64,000 bases of DNA from Actinomyces sp. oral taxon 414 (GTDB lineage Bacteria; Actinomycetota; Actinomycetes; Actinomycetales; Actinomycetaceae). Under the pieces are notes generated by a model. The model ran no database searches. It saw nothing but the letters and a program-made list of their open reading frames with translations, and had not been told where the DNA came from. Position numbers and translations under genes: made by a program. The DNA lies in the NCBI RefSeq assembly GCF_001278845.1, contig NZ_CP012590.1, forward strand, positions 1,488,001-1,552,000, read 5' to 3'. Positions 15,400 through 25,499 of the stretch are shown piece after piece; the first letter of the stretch is position 1; each line of letters begins with the position of its first letter.

Positions 15400-15541
15400 A
15401 TTTGTACTCCGAATGGGAGGTCCTTGATGACGTGAAGGGTCTACGCCGCCCGCCGCACGGGCTCCGCGACGCACGGTCCGCCCGTCCCGACGCGCCGCCC
15501 CGCGCTTGCCCCGCCCGCCGTCGGCCTGCGACCCTTGCCCC

Positions 15542-17137
15542 ATGGCAATCATCCTGGACGGGGTCCTGAGCGAGAAGGCGCTGCGCACGGTCGCCGGCGA
15601 CGACGTCTACGAGCGCGGCGAGGGCCACGTCGAGGCCGTCTGCGTCCACAGCCTCGCCGTCGGCGGCGCGACTGCGACGGTCGGCGGCGGGGGCCCCTGC
15701 GACGTGCACCTGTTCTGGTACGACGACGTCGTCACCGGCGTGTGCACCTGCCCGTGCTTCTCCGATCGCGGCTTCTGCGAGCACATGGTCGCGGTCGGGC
15801 TGGCCATCCTCGACGACATCCGGGACGGCGTCGTCATCCCCGGCCCGCCGTCCGGGGTGCCCGTCGCGCCACCCGCCCCGGACGGCTCCGAACCCCTGCG
15901 GGGCGCCCGCTCCCTCACCGTCATCCGGCGCTTCCTCTACCCCGACGAGGCCGCCCGCTACGCGCGCAGCATCGAGAGGTTCCTCGACGGCCTGGAGTCC
16001 TTCCCGGCCGACTGCGGGGGAGCAGACGGCGCGGCCCCGGCCCTCCTGTACATCGCGACCCGCCTGCGCGCGCAGCTCAAAACCCGCATCGACGACTCCG
16101 GCGGGAGGGTCACGCGCGCCTGCCAGCGCGCCATCGACCTGTACGCCCGGGCCTGCCGCGAGGGCCGGCCCAACGGCGTCAGGCTCGGCCGCTGGCTCGC
16201 GAAGTTCCGGCTCGCCTCACCCGGCTGGCCCAATGTCGCCCTGAACGACTTCCTCCCCGCCCTCGGGGGCAAGGGGGTGGCGGCGTACCGCCGAGTCGTC
16301 GACGCCGCTGCGGAGCAGACGGAGGCGCAGGGCGACCATCCCGGTTTCGAGCTGAGATCCATGCTCCTTGAGCTGGCCGACTACGACGGCGACGTCGATC
16401 GCGCCGTCGAGCTGCTCTCCCAGGAGGAGCATCCCCGGTACGCGGCCATTATCGAGCGGCTCCTGGCGGCCGGGCGGCGCGACGAGGCTGTGGCCCACCT
16501 CGATCGGGCCGTCGCCGAGTCGCGGATCGGCGCCGTCGTCCCCGACCCGCGGGACACTGACGACCCCTACTGGGTCCAGCCCGGTCGCGCTGTCGACCTC
16601 TACCTGGAGGCCGGGCGGGGCGGGGACGCCTTCGGCTTCGCCCGCGACCTGTTCCACTCTAACCCCAGGCCGGCGACCCTCGACTTCCTCCTGGCCACCG
16701 CCGAACGGCTCGGTTGCCGCGAGGAGGAGCTGGACTCGGCCCTGGCCTGGATCGACGGCCAGGACTGGCGCACCGGGGACACGGCCATCGTCCTGGCCCT
16801 GCACCTGGGCGACGTCGACGGCGCCTGGGCGGCGGCGGACCGCTGGGGCGTCGATCGCGTCTGGGCGAGCCTCGCTGACGTCGAGCCCCAGCCCCGCCCC
16901 GACGACGCCATTGAGCTGTACCGCCGCGATGTCGAGAGGACCCTGCTCAAGGCCGGCCGGCCCTCGGCCCGGCGGGCGGCGGCCGGGGCCGTGCGCATGC
17001 GCCTGATCGCCGCCGCCGCAGATGCGCGCGACGGCGGCGGGCGCGTGGAGGCCCTGGCCGCCTGGGTCGGCGGCCTGCGGGAGGCCCACCGCCGCCGTCC
17101 GACCGTGGGCCAGGAGTTCGACCGCGAGGGGCTGTAG
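15542..17137 (+). CDS. SWIM zinc-finger protein with helical-repeat C-terminus
   Basis: A 531-residue protein from the ATG at 15542 (MAIILDGVLSEKAL); the upstream in-frame ATG at 15506 adds only 12 unlikely residues. A SWIM finger with C-x-C and C-x-H ligands sits at about residues 69-82 (CTCPCFSDRGFCEHM) and follows a beta-rich N-domain. SWIM fingers bind DNA or protein. From about residue 125 the protein is helical and aligns with the protein at 5373 (RACREGRP, FLPALGGKG, YDGDVDRAVELL, ERLLAAGRRDEA). Function unknown. It lies 281 bp upstream of the kinase/GTPase block on the same strand, with its own promoter presumably in 15404-15541. Confidence 0.88.
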   Translation: MAIILDGVLSEKALRTVAGDDVYERGEGHVEAVCVHSLAVGGATATVGGGGPCDVHLFWYDDVVTGVCTCPCFSDRGFCEHMVAVGLAILDDIRDGVVIPGPPSGVPVAPPAPDGSEPLRGARSLTVIRRFLYPDEAARYARSIERFLDGLESFPADCGGADGAAPALLYIATRLRAQLKTRIDDSGGRVTRACQRAIDLYARACREGRPNGVRLGRWLAKFRLASPGWPNVALNDFLPALGGKGVAAYRRVVDAAAEQTEAQGDHPGFELRSMLLELADYDGDVDRAVELLSQEEHPRYAAIIERLLAAGRRDEAVAHLDRAVAESRIGAVVPDPRDTDDPYWVQPGRAVDLYLEAGRGGDAFGFARDLFHSNPRPATLDFLLATAERLGCREEELDSALAWIDGQDWRTGDTAIVLALHLGDVDGAWAAADRWGVDRVWASLADVEPQPRPDDAIELYRRDVERTLLKAGRPSARRAAAGAVRMRLIAAAADARDGGGRVEALAAWVGGLREAHRRRPTVGQEFDREGL

Positions 17138-17417: not shown

Positions 17418-18935
17418 ATGACCAGTGCCCTCCCCCCGAGTTATCGGCCCGGCTCCGGAGATCCCTCAAGGGGCGCCATTCCCGCCGGCTTCCGGCCCGA
17501 TAGGGGAGTTGTGCCCGGGCCGACCGGACCGGGGGCCGTCATCCCGACAATGAGTGAGCCCAGGGGCGACATGCCCACCTATCCGATGATGCCCGCGATG
17601 CCCGCGGGCGATATTCGCACCCGGGGCGATCTGCTCGACGGAGACTACGCGATAGTTCTGGAGAAAGTGGCCAACAAGGTTTATCTCGCCCTGGCGACGC
17701 GGGACATGACCATCAACGGAATCGACGTCCGCAGTCAGGAGCCCGTGGTCATCAAGGTCACCGAGCACAATGCGACGCAGAGCGCCCGGGCCGAGGCCTA
17801 TGTGATCCAGCACGCCTCTCAGAGCCCCTACCTCCCGAGGTTCGTGGAGCTGAGGGAGAAGGACGGCAAGGACTGGCTCGTCACCCGCCACATCACCGGC
17901 ACGCCGTTGAGCGACCTCATAAGAATGAGCGGGCCCAATGGCATGGATCCCGTGCGGGCCGCCAGACTCGCGATGGACGTGCTGCAGGCGCTCAAGCTCC
18001 TCCACGGATCCTCGTCCGCCAGCTTCGTCCACCGGGACATCAAGCCAGACAATATCATTGTCACCACGGAGACCGACGGTTGGGAGCACGCGGTCCTCAT
18101 CGACCTCGAGACCGCCATAGATCCGACCAGGACTCTTGATGGGAATATAGCGTACACGCTGCCGTGGGCCTCCCCCGAGCACATGAACACCAAGTTCCTG
18201 AGGTGGTCGTCGGATATTTTCTCCGTCGGGGTGTGCCTATACCAGATGGTGACCGGTCAGCTGCCCTTCGGCGAGCGGGGGGCCATGGAGAACAAGACGA
18301 TGGCGGATTTCCTGCGCGATCGTCCCGACAACGATCTCGTCAACAGGCTCAACGCCGTCATCCGCAAGTCCCTCAATATTAATCAGAGGGACCGCTACCA
18401 GTCGGCAGATGAGATGCTGGCCGATCTGGCATGGGTTCTGAATGGTGGCGGACCACCCTACCCCGGCGTCATCCCCTCTGGCCCGGAGCCTCCCGCCGAC
18501 CCCGAGGCGGTGGAGATGGAGGCCGTCTTAAAGGGAATCTGTCACCAATACACCTCGAAGAGGCGCTTCGAGTCCGTCGCCGAGGAGGTCCATCTGCGCT
18601 GCCGCAGCGAGGTCTTCGCCGCTTTCAACGGCTCCAGACCCCTCAGGGTCTTCTCCCGATGCGGCGGGCGCAAGCGATTCAACGCCTGGCAGCAGAAGCA
18701 GCTGGACAAGATCGCGCCCTTCGATCTCTCCAACGAGGAGAAGCGGATGCTCACCGAGAACTCCGACCTGATGCCCCTCGCCTTCCGTGCAGCGGATCTG
18801 ATCCGGATCGCGAGGGCCGGTGCCGCGGCGCGAGTCAGGTCCCTGAATACCCTGCTCATCGGATTCTTCTTATTCTCCACGGCAGCCGTCGTCGGCCTTG
18901 TTCTCTTCATTATTCTTCTCATCAGTTCGTCCTGA
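17418..18935 (+). CDS. tail-anchored Ser/Thr protein kinase (first gene of GTPase block)
   Basis: A 505-residue protein, ATG at 17418 with TAGGAG 9 bases upstream. Residues 1-65 are Pro/Gly-rich. The kinase domain covers about 70-350: VVIKVT with the ATP-binding Lys near 111, the catalytic loop HRDIKPDN near 205, DLETA in place of the DFG triad near 230, SPEH in place of APE, and DIFSVGVCLYQMVTG. The Asp of the metal-binding triad is kept, so activity is plausible although the loop is unusual. Residues 365-470 form a helical domain of unknown type. A hydrophobic segment (LLIGFFLFSTAAVVGLVLFI) near 480-500 anchors the C-terminus. The next gene starts 29 bp downstream. Confidence 0.88.
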   Translation: MTSALPPSYRPGSGDPSRGAIPAGFRPDRGVVPGPTGPGAVIPTMSEPRGDMPTYPMMPAMPAGDIRTRGDLLDGDYAIVLEKVANKVYLALATRDMTINGIDVRSQEPVVIKVTEHNATQSARAEAYVIQHASQSPYLPRFVELREKDGKDWLVTRHITGTPLSDLIRMSGPNGMDPVRAARLAMDVLQALKLLHGSSSASFVHRDIKPDNIIVTTETDGWEHAVLIDLETAIDPTRTLDGNIAYTLPWASPEHMNTKFLRWSSDIFSVGVCLYQMVTGQLPFGERGAMENKTMADFLRDRPDNDLVNRLNAVIRKSLNINQRDRYQSADEMLADLAWVLNGGGPPYPGVIPSGPEPPADPEAVEMEAVLKGICHQYTSKRRFESVAEEVHLRCRSEVFAAFNGSRPLRVFSRCGGRKRFNAWQQKQLDKIAPFDLSNEEKRMLTENSDLMPLAFRAADLIRIARAGAAARVRSLNTLLIGFFLFSTAAVVGLVLFIILLISSS

Positions 18936-18964
18936 AACTTTTATGACCACTTGTGGAGGTCCGC

Positions 18965-20695
18965 ATGTCGCTTGAATGTCCTCTCTGTGCCAGCAGGAGA
19001 CCATTTCTGCGCGTTGAAAGATTCAAGAACTCGGATGGCGGTATCGGTGTTCGCGCCTACCAGGACACCGGCGGCATCGCCGCCTGGAGGGCGAATGGGT
19101 TCGAGTCGATCCCCTCCGATGCCGGAGCGCAGGTGGTCGAGGCGTACACGGTCTGCCGCAACGGGCACGTCGCCCTCGACGACCCCGAAGTCGGCGCCGC
19201 GCATAAGGTCTGCACCCTGGGATCGGTCGGATCCGGCAAGTCTCAGCTCCTCCACCGGCTGCTCCAGCTGGACCCCCCGGTTTGGGGCCAAGCGCCCCAG
19301 GACGACCGCACACCGGTCGGAGTCTTCATTTCCCACAAGCCCCTTCCCTACGGGGCCCCACCGATTGACAACCCGAATGAGGTCGTCGCCACCGCGGCCG
19401 CCAACTCCGAATCCCTGCGAAACACGCTGCTCAACCTGTTCCGACTGGAATTGAAACTCCGGGGGGTGCGCCGGTGGAATCCTATCACTGGCGGGCGGGA
19501 GACCGCTCTCGTCAGCACACTCGTGGACGAGATTCTATTCAGATACTTCGAGAGCCAGTACGCGGACGACCCGGAATACGCCCAGGAGCAGGCCGACGAT
19601 TGGGGCACGAATCTGCGGGCGCCGTATTTGTATCCCATTACTCTTACAAGGGGCGGGACCTCCTCCACCAAGCACCTGGCCATCGTCGATCTCCCGGGCG
19701 AGGCCACCCGGGAGTGGACCACTCCGACGAGCAATCCGTACGTGAACTCCGACGATGATCTCAGTCAGTTGGAGGACTCGGCGACCATCCTGGCGATCGT
19801 GGATCCGGTTCTGGCGGACTGGTGCTTCAACAAACTCGATGACAGCACCCGCCGTCTCGCCCTGCGTCCCATCTCCGACGAGACGACGACGACGCGCCAG
19901 ACGATGCGCACCGAATCCAGCTCCATCACCAGGAAGCTCCTTCAGGACATCAGCCACCAGGTCCATAACGTCGACAACGCCTCTCTCACGGTCATCGTGA
20001 TCTCCAAGTGCGATGCGATCCGTTACGCTCTCGAGCACGCCTCGGAGAACGCCCCCCACGGACGGTACGACATCGGCCGCTGGAACGACCTCATCCCCAA
20101 GGAGCAGGTGAGCCCCTTCGTCCATTCCGCCAAGAACGCGCTGAGTCAGTTGAGCGACCGGGTGGAGGACTCCCAGATTACGGCGAGCGCTCGGGTCCGG
20201 GAATTCTTAGACAAGTTCCGCATGGCTCCGGTAAGCATGCAGGATCACGTCGCCGCCTCTCTCCTCGCCAACCTGTCCGACCCCTGGAGGTTCTGGAATC
20301 TGGTCATGACGGGGGAAGAGTTCGACCTCGCGGTGAATATGTTCACGCTCCCGGGCGGCGCGGTGACGCATACGGTCTCCTTGAATGATACCGGTAATCT
20401 CAAGCCCCATTCCTTCATCGTCGAGTCCGCGGCATCGTCCTGGAACCGCGGTGTCTCCGGGGAGAGGGTCCAGATGCAGGACGTCGCCGCGTGTGCACTG
20501 GCCAGCGCCCTGCTGGCCAGCATCGTCTCCGAGAACACGGTGGCCCAGTTGAATGCGAATGCGCGTCCGACCTATGCGCTGACGGCCGCCCGCTACCGAA
20601 TCGCCGAGGACGGCGGCGAGCAAACCTCCGACGGCGCTCAGGCGGGCTGCTTCCAGGCTCTTCGGCACATTATTTCTCCGGCTCTGGGGGTGTGA
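18965..20695 (+). CDS. zinc-ribbon P-loop GTPase, DO-GTPase-like (second gene of block)
   Basis: A 576-residue protein. I chose ATG 18965 because GGAGGT lies 4 bases upstream; a GTG at 18953 would add four residues. The N-terminus has a Cys-x2-Cys pair at 5-8 and a C-x3-H motif near 63, suggesting a zinc ribbon. GTPase motifs: G1 GSVGSGKS at about 86-93, a DLPG (G3) near 241, and VISKCDA (G4-like) near 346. Large insertions between G1 and G3 (RYFESQYADDPEY) recall the large TRAFAC-type or double-GTPase proteins of predicted bacterial conflict systems; that comparison is from memory. The C-terminal 200 residues are helical. Its stop is 2 bp from the next start. Confidence 0.8.
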   Translation: MSLECPLCASRRPFLRVERFKNSDGGIGVRAYQDTGGIAAWRANGFESIPSDAGAQVVEAYTVCRNGHVALDDPEVGAAHKVCTLGSVGSGKSQLLHRLLQLDPPVWGQAPQDDRTPVGVFISHKPLPYGAPPIDNPNEVVATAAANSESLRNTLLNLFRLELKLRGVRRWNPITGGRETALVSTLVDEILFRYFESQYADDPEYAQEQADDWGTNLRAPYLYPITLTRGGTSSTKHLAIVDLPGEATREWTTPTSNPYVNSDDDLSQLEDSATILAIVDPVLADWCFNKLDDSTRRLALRPISDETTTTRQTMRTESSSITRKLLQDISHQVHNVDNASLTVIVISKCDAIRYALEHASENAPHGRYDIGRWNDLIPKEQVSPFVHSAKNALSQLSDRVEDSQITASARVREFLDKFRMAPVSMQDHVAASLLANLSDPWRFWNLVMTGEEFDLAVNMFTLPGGAVTHTVSLNDTGNLKPHSFIVESAASSWNRGVSGERVQMQDVAACALASALLASIVSENTVAQLNANARPTYALTAARYRIAEDGGEQTSDGAQAGCFQALRHIISPALGV

Positions 20696-20697
20696 TC

Positions 20698-22782
20698 GTG
20701 GGAAGTGATGGCGTGAGGGACGGCTCGACCCACCGGGGTCCCGCTGCGCACCCTCCCGCGGGCCTCGGATGGACGGCGGCCAGGAGGCCGGGGGCCCCGA
20801 GGCCGGAGATGCCGACGGCGTCATCGACCTGGGTTCTCCAGACCGAACGCGATGCCTCGGAGATCGGCGGCGGCTTCCGGAAGGACATATTCCTCTCATC
20901 GGATGCCGTGACGCCGGATGAGCAGCAGGTGATCAATAAGTATCACAGGCACCTGAGACAACTGAGCATGTCCCTGCATGGAAAACCCGAACCGTTGCAC
21001 TCGATCACCGCCTTCTACGACGGCTCCGCATCCCGGTGGACGGTGGGTCTCTCCGGCTCCGGCAACGCCTACGGCTCCGCCGGCGCCATCCAGATGGCGC
21101 TCGCGCCCCAGCGCATGACGCTGCGGGAGGTCCTCGCCCGGACCTCATTGGCGCTGTCCTCATCGCCGTTTCTGAGCATCGACGCGCTCACGGGGGGCCG
21201 GCCCGCACCGCCTCCAGCGCCATCGGCGGTCGAGCGGGAACGGATCGCCCGGGCGCTCGGCGCCGCCATGCACATGAATTCGAGCCGCATCCTCACTCTT
21301 GTGGACGTTCCGGATGCGGACCCGATGACGGCCCTGCAATGGATGGCGCAGACCGTCCCCGAGAGACTCTGTCAGACCGCTTGGTGGTCGACGGCGCTCC
21401 TGCTCAATAACCCCTCGTCCAGTCGTCGCATCATTGCAACGCCGTGGCCGCAGGCTCTCGCGCAGCGGCATCCGAAGGAGAAGGCGCTGGTCGACGACAA
21501 CGTCTATGCGGCGGACCCGTCAACCGATGCGGCCGAGCGGGGACTGCTGCAGTGGTACACGGGCCTGGTGCTCGGCGCCGGGGGAGGCGCCGCGATCCGG
21601 GATATCGCCGAAACGGCCTTCCTGAATGCCTGCGGCGCGGGAACCGCGCTCACCCAATGGGATGCGCTCGCACCGGTGTGGTTGGCGAGCATCGATCAGG
21701 CCAGGCCGCTCAATGATGACGAGATCGCCCGAGTGATCAACGGCGAGGACGATGGGTCCCTTCTGCGGCGCTGGACGGATGAGTGCGCCGAGCGTGCGGT
21801 GGGATGGGAGAACGCTATTCCCGCACTGGTCGGACACGCGGAACCGGCGGTGTCATCATCGGCGATTCGTGCGCTGGAGGGCTCTCAAACGGGATTCGCT
21901 CACTTGTGCCAGTGGCAGGCCGAGGAGATCGCCCGGGCCGCACTGTCGGCCGGCCCGCCCGCCGGTATCGAGACCGGATACGGCGCCGCCCCCGGGGATT
22001 CCGCCAGAGCGGGGGGTAGGGGCATCGAGGCCCCCCGGGCGCTCCTCTCGTTGCAGGACAAGTCCGCACTGGTCGGCGAAGTGCTGCGGCGACTGCGGGC
22101 CTTCAAGGACGCGCCGCCGGATGCGTGGGCGCCGCAGGCCGAGTCCTGGATCAGGAGCCTGGGTCTCAGACCGCGCGATTTCAACGCCCATCTGCCGTTG
22201 ACGGCGGACCGGGCGATGGAGCGCTTCGCCGCCGCGCCGTATGACCTCTCGCCCATTATGACGGTGGTGAACAATTCGGCCTCCCGGGAGGCCGCCCTGG
22301 ATGTGATGCTGCGCGCATCGCAAGTGGCCCCGTCCCAGCAGGGGGCGCTCCTGTCCGCGCTGCACGACAACCCGCCGCAGCGCGACCTGAACTGGCGCAT
22401 CCTGCTGAACCGGCTCATTCCGAATGACACGCGCCTGGCGGACGTGCCCGGCAGACTCGATGCGCTGAACGAGTCTCTGCCGGACGGTTCGGACGAGTTC
22501 CGTCACGAGATCGTCACAGAGCTTCTGAGAAGACGCGGAACGGAAATGCTGGCGCGGGTCGCGAGCGATCAGACCGGCGCGGGCAGGGACGCCGCCATCG
22601 CCCTGCTGGCCTTCGCCGTCAATGAGCACTACCAGGCCCCCGGCCCCCGCGAGGAGGCGGGAGCCGGCTCCGATCGCGTCCTGGAATGGATCTGGTCCCA
22701 GAGGAAGTGGTTGGCGATCGCGATCGCGGTTGTGACCGCCATCGTCGTCATCGTCTTTATTGCCCAGACGCTGTCGAACTGA
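20698..22782 (+). CDS. large tail-anchored protein of the GTPase block, GAP1-like
   Basis: A 694-residue protein. The start is GTG 20698, preceded by GGGGGT 6-7 bases away; GTG 20692, overlapping the previous stop (GTGA), is the alternative. After a 45-residue disordered leader, the N-terminal domain (STWVLQTERDASEIGGGFRK, SRWTVGLSGSGNAYGSAGAI) is alpha/beta. The remaining 500 residues are helical with no catalytic motif. A single hydrophobic segment near 669-690 (LAIAIAVVTAIVVIVFIAQT) anchors the C-terminus, with the bulk in the cytoplasm. Its place directly after the GTPase suggests a regulator or effector scaffold, like proteins called GTPase-associated protein 1; family assignment uncertain. 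Confidence 0.72.
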   Translation: MGSDGVRDGSTHRGPAAHPPAGLGWTAARRPGAPRPEMPTASSTWVLQTERDASEIGGGFRKDIFLSSDAVTPDEQQVINKYHRHLRQLSMSLHGKPEPLHSITAFYDGSASRWTVGLSGSGNAYGSAGAIQMALAPQRMTLREVLARTSLALSSSPFLSIDALTGGRPAPPPAPSAVERERIARALGAAMHMNSSRILTLVDVPDADPMTALQWMAQTVPERLCQTAWWSTALLLNNPSSSRRIIATPWPQALAQRHPKEKALVDDNVYAADPSTDAAERGLLQWYTGLVLGAGGGAAIRDIAETAFLNACGAGTALTQWDALAPVWLASIDQARPLNDDEIARVINGEDDGSLLRRWTDECAERAVGWENAIPALVGHAEPAVSSSAIRALEGSQTGFAHLCQWQAEEIARAALSAGPPAGIETGYGAAPGDSARAGGRGIEAPRALLSLQDKSALVGEVLRRLRAFKDAPPDAWAPQAESWIRSLGLRPRDFNAHLPLTADRAMERFAAAPYDLSPIMTVVNNSASREAALDVMLRASQVAPSQQGALLSALHDNPPQRDLNWRILLNRLIPNDTRLADVPGRLDALNESLPDGSDEFRHEIVTELLRRRGTEMLARVASDQTGAGRDAAIALLAFAVNEHYQAPGPREEAGAGSDRVLEWIWSQRKWLAIAIAVVTAIVVIVFIAQTLSN

Positions 22783-22795
22783 AGGGTGCGGGGAA

Positions 22796-24118
22796 TTGGG
22801 GTCGCAACCGGTGAACGGCGGTCTGGCCGTCGAATTGTGGGACAAGCTCATGGAGGCGCGCGTATCTTTTCCGTCAGCGGGGGAGCTGATTGTTAAGGGC
22901 GGAGTGTATATCAGCAGAGACCAGGCGGAGCATATGCGATCAAAAATCGCTCCGCTGGTGGGCCGGCTCGGCGGCGACGAGGCCCGGGAGGCACTCGGGG
23001 AGGCGCAGCAGTTCGCGGCCCTGGGGGAGTGCTTCGTGTACCTCCACTGGGTTTCGCAGGCCACCGGCTCTCCGAGCGCCACTTTCCACAGCTACGCCGA
23101 CCACTATCTCACCAGCGCGATCTCCCTTATCGAGGACCGGACGGGCGCCGGTTCCCGCGATGCGGCGAAGAAGCGGGCGCAGGCGCGGCGGCAGGTGGAC
23201 ACCGAGACCTTGCACTCTCTCCTGAACACATACCTCAATATGCCCATACACCTCATCACCGAAACAAAGTACCCAGATCCCTCTCCTCCGTCTGCGCCCC
23301 CGCCGGAACCGCCGTCGCTGACGCTACAAGCAGAACCGCGAGCGGCCGCGCCGTCGGCGCCAGCGGTGGTAAAGGCCCCTGCCGCACCGCACCAGGCCGC
23401 TGACCAAGACCCCGACGCCGGCTCAAGGGCGGCCACTGCACCCGAAACACCCCCGCCGCCGAAGACGAACGAGGTCGGCGTACGCGGGCGATCCAGAGGG
23501 GAGACGGAAGGACAACCCCGCAATGTGCAGCAGACAGCCGGTGCACGCGGGCGATCCGGAGGGAGGCGACGCCCACATCGTACCGGGCGTCGGGTGATTG
23601 CACTTGGAAAGTCCATCCTCGCACTCATCGGGGCCGTCATCGCAGGTGCCGTCGTGGCCGTCGCGGTACTCGCCGCCGCGAGAATAAGAGCATCGCTGTC
23701 TGGGTGGTATGAGAACGTCTTCTGGGGAGGCGTGATCGGATTCTTAATCATGTTCTTGGTCGTGCAGCTTTATCCAAAGGGCGGCTTTAAGGTGCGCGGC
23801 GTCAGGAGATCTGACAGGCGATCCGAGGAGGGTCGGCTCCTGGCCCGGGCCGTCTTCGTCGTCGTGAGCGTCGTCGTGAGCGTCACCGGAGTCGCACGCG
23901 TCAGCGCGAATCCCAGTTCCATGAAACTCGTGGACTCGGGCGTCACCGAACTCACCGCACTGATGTCCGAACAATTCGGAAGGATAATATCCGAGAGAAG
24001 TGCCGACATCTTGAGCGAAACCATCATCTGCGGCATTGTCGGAGTTGTTCTCGGAATTGCTATCGGATTTGTATTTCGCTTGATTCTACTCCTCTTATCG
24101 GGGGAGTCCCGGGAGTAG
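22796..24118 (+). CDS. multi-pass membrane protein of the GTPase block
   Basis: A 440-residue protein from TTG 22796, with GTG 22811 as alternative start. The N-terminal 160 residues are a soluble helical domain (DQAEHMRSKIAPLVGRLGG, SLLNTYLNMPIHLI). Residues 165-265 are Pro/Ala-rich and then Arg/Gly-rich, with the repeated phrase VRGRSRGETEGQ / ARGRSGGRR. Four hydrophobic segments follow (about 268-292, 303-322, 345-366, 405-435). No recognised family. It lies 13 bp after the preceding gene and is followed by decayed IS sequence, so it closes the operon. It may be the membrane-acting component of the system. Confidence 0.75.
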   Translation: MGSQPVNGGLAVELWDKLMEARVSFPSAGELIVKGGVYISRDQAEHMRSKIAPLVGRLGGDEAREALGEAQQFAALGECFVYLHWVSQATGSPSATFHSYADHYLTSAISLIEDRTGAGSRDAAKKRAQARRQVDTETLHSLLNTYLNMPIHLITETKYPDPSPPSAPPPEPPSLTLQAEPRAAAPSAPAVVKAPAAPHQAADQDPDAGSRAATAPETPPPPKTNEVGVRGRSRGETEGQPRNVQQTAGARGRSGGRRRPHRTGRRVIALGKSILALIGAVIAGAVVAVAVLAAARIRASLSGWYENVFWGGVIGFLIMFLVVQLYPKGGFKVRGVRRSDRRSEEGRLLARAVFVVVSVVVSVTGVARVSANPSSMKLVDSGVTELTALMSEQFGRIISERSADILSETIICGIVGVVLGIAIGFVFRLILLLLSGESRE

Positions 24119-24734: not shown

Positions 24735-24992
24735 GTCAGGGAGCACCACGCACCTGTAGGTGCATTGAGACAATTCGGCGAGCTATTTTCGGCGGGCTTA
24801 GCCCTTGGTCAGGGAGCACCACGCACCTGTAGGTGCATTGAGACGCAATGATGCCAGCCATGTAGGCGGCACCATATCCCAGTCAGGGAGCACCACGCAC
24901 CTGTAGGTGCATTGAGACTCGACGACGATGGCCATGACGGCTACGGCGCCGATGGGTCAGGGAGCACCACGCACCTGTGGCGACTACGAAAC
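24735..24992. CRISPR. three-spacer CRISPR array, no cas genes in window
   Basis: 37-bp repeats at 24735-24771, 24808-24844 and 24882-24918 are identical (start GTCAGGGAG, internal stem GCACC/GGTGC, end ATTGAGAC). A fourth at 24956-24992 keeps the first 22 bases but its 3' half has degenerated, as usual for the last repeat, so the array reads left to right with its leader on the left. Spacers are 36, 37 and 37 bp. No cas gene lies anywhere in the window. I cannot assign a type from the repeat alone. Confidence 0.95.
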
Positions 24993-25451: not shown

Positions 25452-25499
25452 ACACCGGCGGCAGGTCCGGGGAAATCCGGCGCGTCCACAGCCGGCGCT

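Follow-up and report, generated by a model that had tools for sequence, protein, structure and literature searches.

A kinase-linked DO-GTPase-family cassette with a putative GAP1-like membrane-anchored partner in Actinomyces

A four-gene cassette and its products

We analysed a 64,000-nucleotide stretch of DNA from Actinomyces sp. oral taxon 414 (hereafter the window), which spans bases 1488001-1552000 of a 3.84-Mb single-contig genome, and examined a cassette of four open reading frames (ORFs) within it, encoding a Ser/Thr kinase, a GTPase, a 694-residue membrane-anchored protein and a multi-pass membrane protein (genes 1 to 4). A preceding annotation made from the letters and their translations (the sequence-only reading) had placed the four genes on one strand with gaps of 29, 2 and 13 bp; this layout, on the + strand, proved exact, with GTG and TTG as the start codons of genes 3 and 4. 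Using the GTPase as query, we found a match in 4/49 Actinomyces genomes, the window's own included, which yielded five loci for comparison: the window, a second locus in the same genome (C1:115671-117389, with a GTPase 34% identical to that of the window), and one each in A. dentalis (88%), A. glycerinitolerans (35%) and A. israelii (33%). The features of the cassette, in window coordinates, are as follows.

17418..18935, + strand: gene 1, tail-anchored Ser/Thr protein kinase, 505 aa (Pkinase PF00069, 85.9 bits against a Pfam cut-off of 31.7; C-terminal hydrophobic segment)
17721..18416, + strand: kinase domain, residues 102-333, with K113, D207, N212 and D229 invariant in 5/5 loci and DFG replaced by DLE (Pfam and alignment)
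18867..18923, + strand: predicted membrane segment of the kinase, residues 484-502 (hydropathy)
18965..20695, + strand: gene 2, DO-GTPase2-family GTPase, 576 aa (PF19993, 31.2 bits against a curated Pfam cut-off of 27)
18977..19168, + strand: zinc-ribbon-like CxxC ... CxxxH pattern of the GTPase (C5, C8, C64, H68; invariant in 5/5 loci)
19220..19246, + strand: GTPase P-loop GSVGSGKSQ, residues 86-94 (motif alignment)
19682..19702, + strand: GTPase Walker B IVDLPGE with the Glu of the family, residues 240-246 (motif alignment)
20003..20014, + strand: SKCD, an NKxD-type motif of the GTPase, residues 347-350 (motif alignment)
20698..22782, + strand: gene 3, putative GAP1-like membrane-anchored protein, 694 aa (position in 5/5 loci; model; no Pfam match)
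20821..21192, + strand: longin-like N-domain of gene 3, residues about 42-165 (model)
21220..21522, + strand: presumed GAP1-M/DENN-like middle region of gene 3 with a WST motif, residues about 175-275 (low-confidence model)
21523..22626, + strand: helical region of gene 3, residues about 276-643 (model)
22708..22764, + strand: predicted membrane segment of gene 3, residues 671-689 (hydropathy)
22796..24118, + strand: gene 4, 440 aa, an N-terminal domain in common only with A. dentalis, then four predicted membrane segments
23615..24091, + strand: membrane half of gene 4, residues 274-432, absent in A. dentalis (hydropathy and comparison)

The kinase is one of 14 Pkinase matches in the window's genome. 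Its sequence shows both motifs reported earlier, a retained HRDIKPDN and a DFG changed to DLE, and the catalytic residues Lys113, Asp207, Asn212 and Asp229 are invariant across the kinases of the five loci. All five loci keep the Asp of the DFG position: the window and A. dentalis read DLE there, the own-genome paralogue has an intact DFG, and the A. glycerinitolerans and A. israelii kinases read DLG. The window kinase carries the residues of an active Ser/Thr kinase, yet the activity of this copy is uncertain, because the Gly of DFG is Glu and our reading of the alignment found no recognisable glycine-rich loop. When we compared the cassette with the known anti-phage loci modelled in PADLOC, as the sequence-only reading had proposed, similarity was confined to the kinase, whose matches to the PD-T4-6, MADS and PglW kinases (PDLC04053 at 109.7 bits) span the Ser/Thr kinase domain only; P0002, P0003 and P0004 matched no model at E<=0.1, nor did they match anything in PHROGs. 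PD-T4-6 is a stand-alone kinase that protects against phage.

The lead towards the DO-GTPase family was borne out, as the window GTPase passes the Pfam cut-off for DO-GTPase2. Its relatives score lower: the own-genome paralogue (20.3 bits) and A. israelii (11.9 bits) do not reach the cut-off, and for A. glycerinitolerans there is no match; at E<=0.1, 3/5 loci match the family. The P-loop, DLPGE and [ST]KCD are retained in all five GTPases, as are the N-terminal cysteine motifs noticed from the window (C-x2-C with its later Cys and His); these form one C-x2-C/C-x3-H ribbon-like pattern, and a second ribbon was not seen. A housekeeping GTPase, the identity that by the earlier account would have undone a system interpretation, was dropped because no such family matched in profile searches, and an ABC ATPase was dropped because only the P-loop stretch matched. 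Against PDB sequences the GTPase profile gave weak matches only, mostly to the P-loop, and GTPase relatives were found in 0/23 viral contig stretches and in none of 72,556 plasmid or 50,697 phage records.

The sequence-only reading had also held three of the four products to be membrane-attached and the GTPase to be soluble. Hydropathy agrees for the kinase and gene 3, each with a single C-terminal hydrophobic segment in 5/5 loci, and for gene 4, with four segments in the window. It agrees for the window GTPase as well, which has no hydrophobic segment; in 2/5 loci the GTPase shows a marginal one just above threshold.

A conserved three-gene core with variable surroundings

Kinase, GTPase and gene 3 are consecutive, in the same order and on one strand in 5/5 loci, and form a conserved three-gene core in a few Actinomyces; elsewhere the cassettes keep this order at about 25-35% identity. 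The kinase-GTPase spacing is 29 bp in the window, 27 in A. dentalis, 34 in A. glycerinitolerans and -4 in both the own-genome paralogue and A. israelii, and that between GTPase and gene 3 is 2 in the window and A. dentalis, -1 in A. glycerinitolerans and A. israelii and -4 in the own-genome paralogue, with the overlaps at the relatives' junctions (ATGA, TGATG, TAGTG) read by eye from the DNA. Compared with A. dentalis, the ratio of nonsynonymous to synonymous substitution rates (dN/dS) was 0.51 for the kinase, 0.25 for the GTPase and 0.59 for gene 3; for gene 4 it was 0.57 over residues 1-165 and 0.70 over all aligned codons. The cassette is therefore under constraint, strongest on the GTPase.

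Outside the genus, the GTPase search of 396 genomes of the order returned 5 genomes at E<=0.001, of which all but the window's own gave only P-loop fragments (19.5-24 bits); in a class sample 1/394 genomes matched at E<=1e-8, and a gene 3 profile matched 1/297 genomes of the order sample, in both cases the window's own. The order and class samples overlap, are partial and held few congeners. Gene 3 relatives were found in 0/26 viral contigs and in no plasmids.

Conservation of all four genes together, the lack of which the sequence-only reading had named as refuting its interpretation, held for the core and failed for gene 4, which lies outside it. The one recognisable homologue of gene 4 among the five loci, in A. 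dentalis, stops short of the membrane half; nucleotide similarity between the window and A. dentalis breaks off at window position 23324 and resumes at 25486. In A. glycerinitolerans, two other multi-pass proteins follow gene 3, 31% identical to one another over 159 residues and with no detectable relation to gene 4. The output side thus varies between loci, as in published systems, and an effector role for gene 4 is a candidate one.

Other genes accompany the more distant loci. The protein encoded just before the kinase in the own-genome paralogue (L014:14127-15899(-)) and in A. israelii (L017:13312-15168(-)) is 44% identical between the two; the former has a sub-cut-off tetratricopeptide repeat (TPR) match, and BLAST found no counterpart in the window. 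The own-genome paralogous locus also holds a nearby DUF4407 membrane protein (L014:16165-18402(-)), whose C-terminal 200 residues resemble an adjoining 316-residue protein (L014:18601-19551(-)) and a protein near the A. israelii cassette (L017:4678-5658(+)); the PADLOC (ZorA, JetC, LmuB) and NCBIfam (SMC) matches in this area are weak and look like generic coiled coil. Beside the same paralogue lies a 673-residue protein of many near-identical TPR units (L014:6441-8462(+)).

Neighbours differ in 3/5 loci. The window cassette is flanked by an FtsX gene and, upstream, by a gene for a DUF6880/SWIM-like protein (window 15506-17137; dN/dS 0.59 against A. dentalis). Both flanking proteins were matched in 7/49 genomes (cut-offs 1e-20 and 1e-60); the matches adjoin each other in 2 of these, the window's genome and A. 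dentalis, lie on separate contigs in 2 and stand at a distance on a shared contig in 3, and none of the seven showed an empty cassette site. The SWIM-like protein has a weak PADLOC match to PDC-S62, and a second copy, 55% identical, lies 10 kb upstream at G000:C1:1493649-1494713. In 500-base steps, G+C is 0.60-0.69 in the cassette, 0.73-0.77 in the preceding 2 kb and 0.77-0.80 from 25.5 to 27.5 kb; the low-G+C stretch extends beyond the cassette to about 25.5 kb.

The surroundings had been described as a defence island, a reading that we dropped on the Pfam and PADLOC scans of the neighbours and the location of cas1. Ten neighbouring ORFs were scanned; in Pfam five of them were an FtsX permease, an ABC ATPase, a response regulator, a phosphoglucose isomerase and one helix-turn-helix protein with a sub-cut-off IS21 match, with nothing for the remaining 5, and the scanned neighbours are mostly non-defence; PADLOC gave only weak matches, to two (PDC-S62, 25.6 bits; mad1, 26.8 bits). 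The repeat array (window 24735-24978) resembles clustered regularly interspaced short palindromic repeats (CRISPR) in miniature, with three 37-bp repeats identical to one another and a partial fourth, spaced at 73-74 bp, and the nucleotide match to A. dentalis skips it; cas1 matches lie outside the window, at 2.87 Mb and, split, at 0.67 Mb of the genome.

Gene 3 and the published DO-GTPase/GAP1 systems

Kaur, Burroughs, Iyer and Aravind (Kaur et al. 2020; PMC7159879) had already predicted actinobacterial DO-GTPase/GAP1 loci that include a kinase. The available part of that paper describes DO-GTPase loci, often with zinc ribbons (usually two) and a Walker B Glu, and a partner, GAP1, that is typically downstream of the DO-GTPase and has N, M and C domains, with C-terminal membrane helices often present in GAP1-N2; GAP1-N2 systems additionally have a protein with fibronectin type III (FNIII, fn3) repeats. 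Its third theme, found in actinobacteria only, features a protein kinase, which sometimes carries fused membrane helices, and usually PP2C and vWA genes. The kinase, which the sequence-only reading had taken as an addition to the published scheme, belongs to this theme, and the cassette, put forward there as an undescribed system, is a variant of the predicted kinase-linked DO-GTPase/GAP1 class and not of an undescribed kind. To our knowledge these systems are known from computation only, and we found no statement of how GAP1 acts in the literature examined.

With the kinase theme the cassette shares a GTPase of the DO-GTPase2 family that has a ribbon pattern near its N terminus and the Walker B Glu, a partner that is encoded immediately downstream and ends in a membrane helix, a membrane-linked kinase, an actinobacterial host and paralogous copies within one genome. 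It differs in having one GTPase, one visible ribbon, the kinase first in the operon, a partner that Pfam does not recognise and the extra multi-pass gene 4. No fn3 was found in the four genes, the SWIM-like gene, the 10 neighbouring ORFs or the ORFs scanned at the other loci (a subset of those present), and for this reason we did not file the cassette as a full GAP1-N2 system. PP2C and vWA genes were likewise not seen among the ORFs scanned at the window and other loci.

Canonical GAP1-N2 proteins occur in 15/49 Actinomyces genomes and in 4/296 genomes of a phylum sample. The window's genome has two such regions, at G000:C1:476409-480313 (L068) and 500234-500641 (L069). L068 encodes an fn3 protein, two DO-GTPase2 proteins and GAP1-N2/M; L069 encodes GAP1-N2/M, with an upstream ORF whose vWA match falls just below the cut-off. 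The cassette resembles them in the Pfam family of its GTPase (L068) and in an order of N and M elements in the gene 3 model comparable to that in GAP1, whereas the fn3 protein and the paired DO-GTPase2 proteins of L068 set that region apart and neither region has a kinase match. Of seven canonical GTPases examined, 4 have D[TA]AGE at Walker B, the pattern used finding nothing in the other 3. A kinase-theme locus of another actinobacterium (G541, L071) has the order DO-GTPase2, GAP1-N2/M/C, DO-GTPase2, PP2C, kinase.

Modelling of the 694-residue product of gene 3, a check proposed at the outset, yielded a structure of modest confidence (low in the middle region) with a longin-like N-domain, whereas a canonical GAP1 from the same genome gave a good model. 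Among 350,542 PDB chains, searched without an unrelated-protein control model, the best match for both was TagF, a regulator of type VI secretion. The N-domain model of gene 3 matches longin-containing GTPase regulators, the N+M model of canonical GAP1 aligns lengthwise with the Rab exchange factors DENND1A/1B, and the two models have a comparable element order over the N and M regions. Gene 3 would accordingly consist of a longin-like N-domain, probably a GAP1-M/DENN-like middle, a stretch of helices and, at the C terminus, a membrane anchor. The models thus suggest a longin/DENN/TagF-like nature for canonical GAP1 and, with less assurance, for gene 3.

Sequence comparisons do not support assigning gene 3 to GAP1. 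Aligned with hhalign to Actinomyces GAP1s, it scored 16.5 (11 rows) and 17.7 (12 rows); unrelated alignments used as controls reached higher, 19.8 with the GTPase and 24.5 with the kinase. Restricted to the N+M part, the score was 17.6 against 17.3 for the reversed alignment, with 200 column shuffles giving a mean of 14.1 (sd 2.4) and five highest values of 19.8-22.7, and in global mode it was 3.5 against a null of 4.0. Sequence evidence for gene 3 as a GAP1 was therefore discarded, since unrelated controls score as high. Adding model-derived secondary structure gave 19.0 (E 0.097); the 87 reversed-and-rotated controls for this comparison (maximum 13.6) are mutually dependent and were given no weight. 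Gene 3 matched no Pfam family at E<=1, TagF family included, its relatives likewise had no Pfam match, the cassette proteins of the window and its relatives found no match in four canonical GAP1 regions, and neither the GAP1 N+M profile nor the gene 3 profile matched PDB sequences at E<=10. As sequence comparison gives no support, the GAP1-like reading rests on the models and on gene position: of the proposal of a GAP1-family partner, the adjoining position and shared TagF match stood, while a Pfam match and a profile score better than controls did not materialise.

A possible membrane switch and its alternatives

We consider it an even bet that the cassette is a kinase-linked, single-GTPase relative of the predicted DO-GTPase/GAP1-N2 systems with gene 3 in GAP1's part, and judge the chances equally balanced that this membrane-anchored protein is a GAP1-like regulator of the GTPase, of longin/DENN-like build and perhaps controlled by the kinase. 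Under such a model, the tail-anchored kinase would relay an envelope signal and, we speculate, phosphorylate the GAP1-like protein or the GTPase; the membrane-fixed GAP1-like protein would recruit the soluble zinc-ribbon GTPase, and its longin and middle domains could change the GTPase's nucleotide state, in a direction open to conjecture. The GTPase might then drive an output, equally conjectural, through variable membrane partners, gene 4 here and other multi-pass proteins elsewhere.

Because unrelated controls score as high as the GAP1 match, we lowered our confidence in the GAP1-like reading to this even level and raised the weight of its structural alternative, which we still hold unlikely: that gene 3 is unrelated to GAP1, its longin/TagF similarity reflecting convergence on a common alpha/beta sandwich or the weakness of a low-confidence model. 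Convergence sits poorly with the position of gene 3 beside a DO-GTPase-family gene, as for GAP1, with two separately made models finding the same top match in the whole chain set, and with the matching element order over two regions.

As to function, the cassette could serve as a non-defence regulator of the cell envelope, in membrane stress, polarity or secretion control, resembling the type VI threonine-phosphorylation circuit in which PpkA relieves TagF repression. According to the accessible text of PMC6082577, tagF lies directly downstream of tssM, TagF blocks membrane-complex assembly and PpkA-mediated Fha phosphorylation overcomes the block. The TagF match of both gene 3 and canonical GAP1, the C-terminal hydrophobic segments of kinase and gene 3, and the mostly non-defence neighbours are consistent with such a role, as is the occurrence of a DO-GTPase in some psp operons, with a predicted membrane-stress role, in the portion of PMC11237479 available. 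However, the patchy distribution across the genus, a G+C below that of the nearest flanks and the differing neighbours look like those of an accessory system, and we regard the envelope role as plausible, if somewhat short of even. An antiphage, abortive-infection-like system, with a membrane effect of gene 4 or its counterparts as output, would fit that patchiness, the two diverged copies in one genome, the membrane partners that differ between loci and the prediction, in the available text of PMC7159879, that DO-GTPase/GAP1 systems are conflict systems. We consider it rather improbable: the literature examined yielded no experiment, PADLOC recognised the kinase only through its kinase domain and P0002, P0003 and P0004 not at all, A. 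dentalis lacks the membrane half of gene 4, and GTPase relatives are absent from the plasmid and phage records searched.

Taking the GAP1-like reading further, we tentatively suggest, as somewhat less likely than not, that GAP1-N2/M, the gene 3 family and TagF are all bacterial longin-DENN-like GTPase regulators, and that GTPase-GAP1-kinase(-PP2C) loci and TssM-TagF-PpkA-PppA are two branches of one membrane-switch design. The shared design would, with the same reserve, comprise a membrane P-loop NTPase, an adjacently encoded longin/DENN-like partner and a Ser/Thr kinase that releases a block. TagF is the nearest solved fold to gene 3, a Ser/Thr kinase acts against TagF, and tagF adjoins tssM; the cassette has comparable ingredients in a P-loop GTPase, a putative TagF/longin-like partner encoded beside it and a membrane kinase. 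The solved TagF chains, however, have 234 and 324 residues, against 694 and a membrane anchor in gene 3. According to PMC9972734, some TssM homologues carry Walker A/B motifs in their cytoplasmic part, Agrobacterium TssM binds and hydrolyses ATP, and a Walker A change in EvpO was without effect on secretion, a further difference from the cassette.

Parts of PMC3521125 describe longin domains as binding GTPases and resembling PAS folds; by that account, one longin was joined to DENN and d-DENN in the stem lineage of eukaryotes. Eukaryotic longin/DENN modules (DENND1A/B, DENND10, FLCN-FNIP, C9orf72-SMCR8) are like the proteins studied here in the model matches of the gene 3 N-domain and canonical GAP1 N+M and in having P-loop GTPase partners; they differ in that sequence similarity was not detected and their GTPases are of another class. 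Our partial literature coverage included no paper mentioning both TagF and DENN, and the main text of Kaur et al., as far as available, is without TagF, longin or roadblock, with type VI only within a reference title (PMC7159879).

If this joint reading is true, DENN, a module said to have arisen in the stem lineage of eukaryotes, would have bacterial counterparts, and eukaryotic DENN exchange factors would gain a possible bacterial counterpart. It would also hint at how TagF might act, a point that the available text of PMC6082577 leaves open. A longin/DENN-like fold would give GAP1 an assayable job, acting on the nucleotide state of the neighbouring GTPase, for which the compact three-gene cassette would be a convenient test system.

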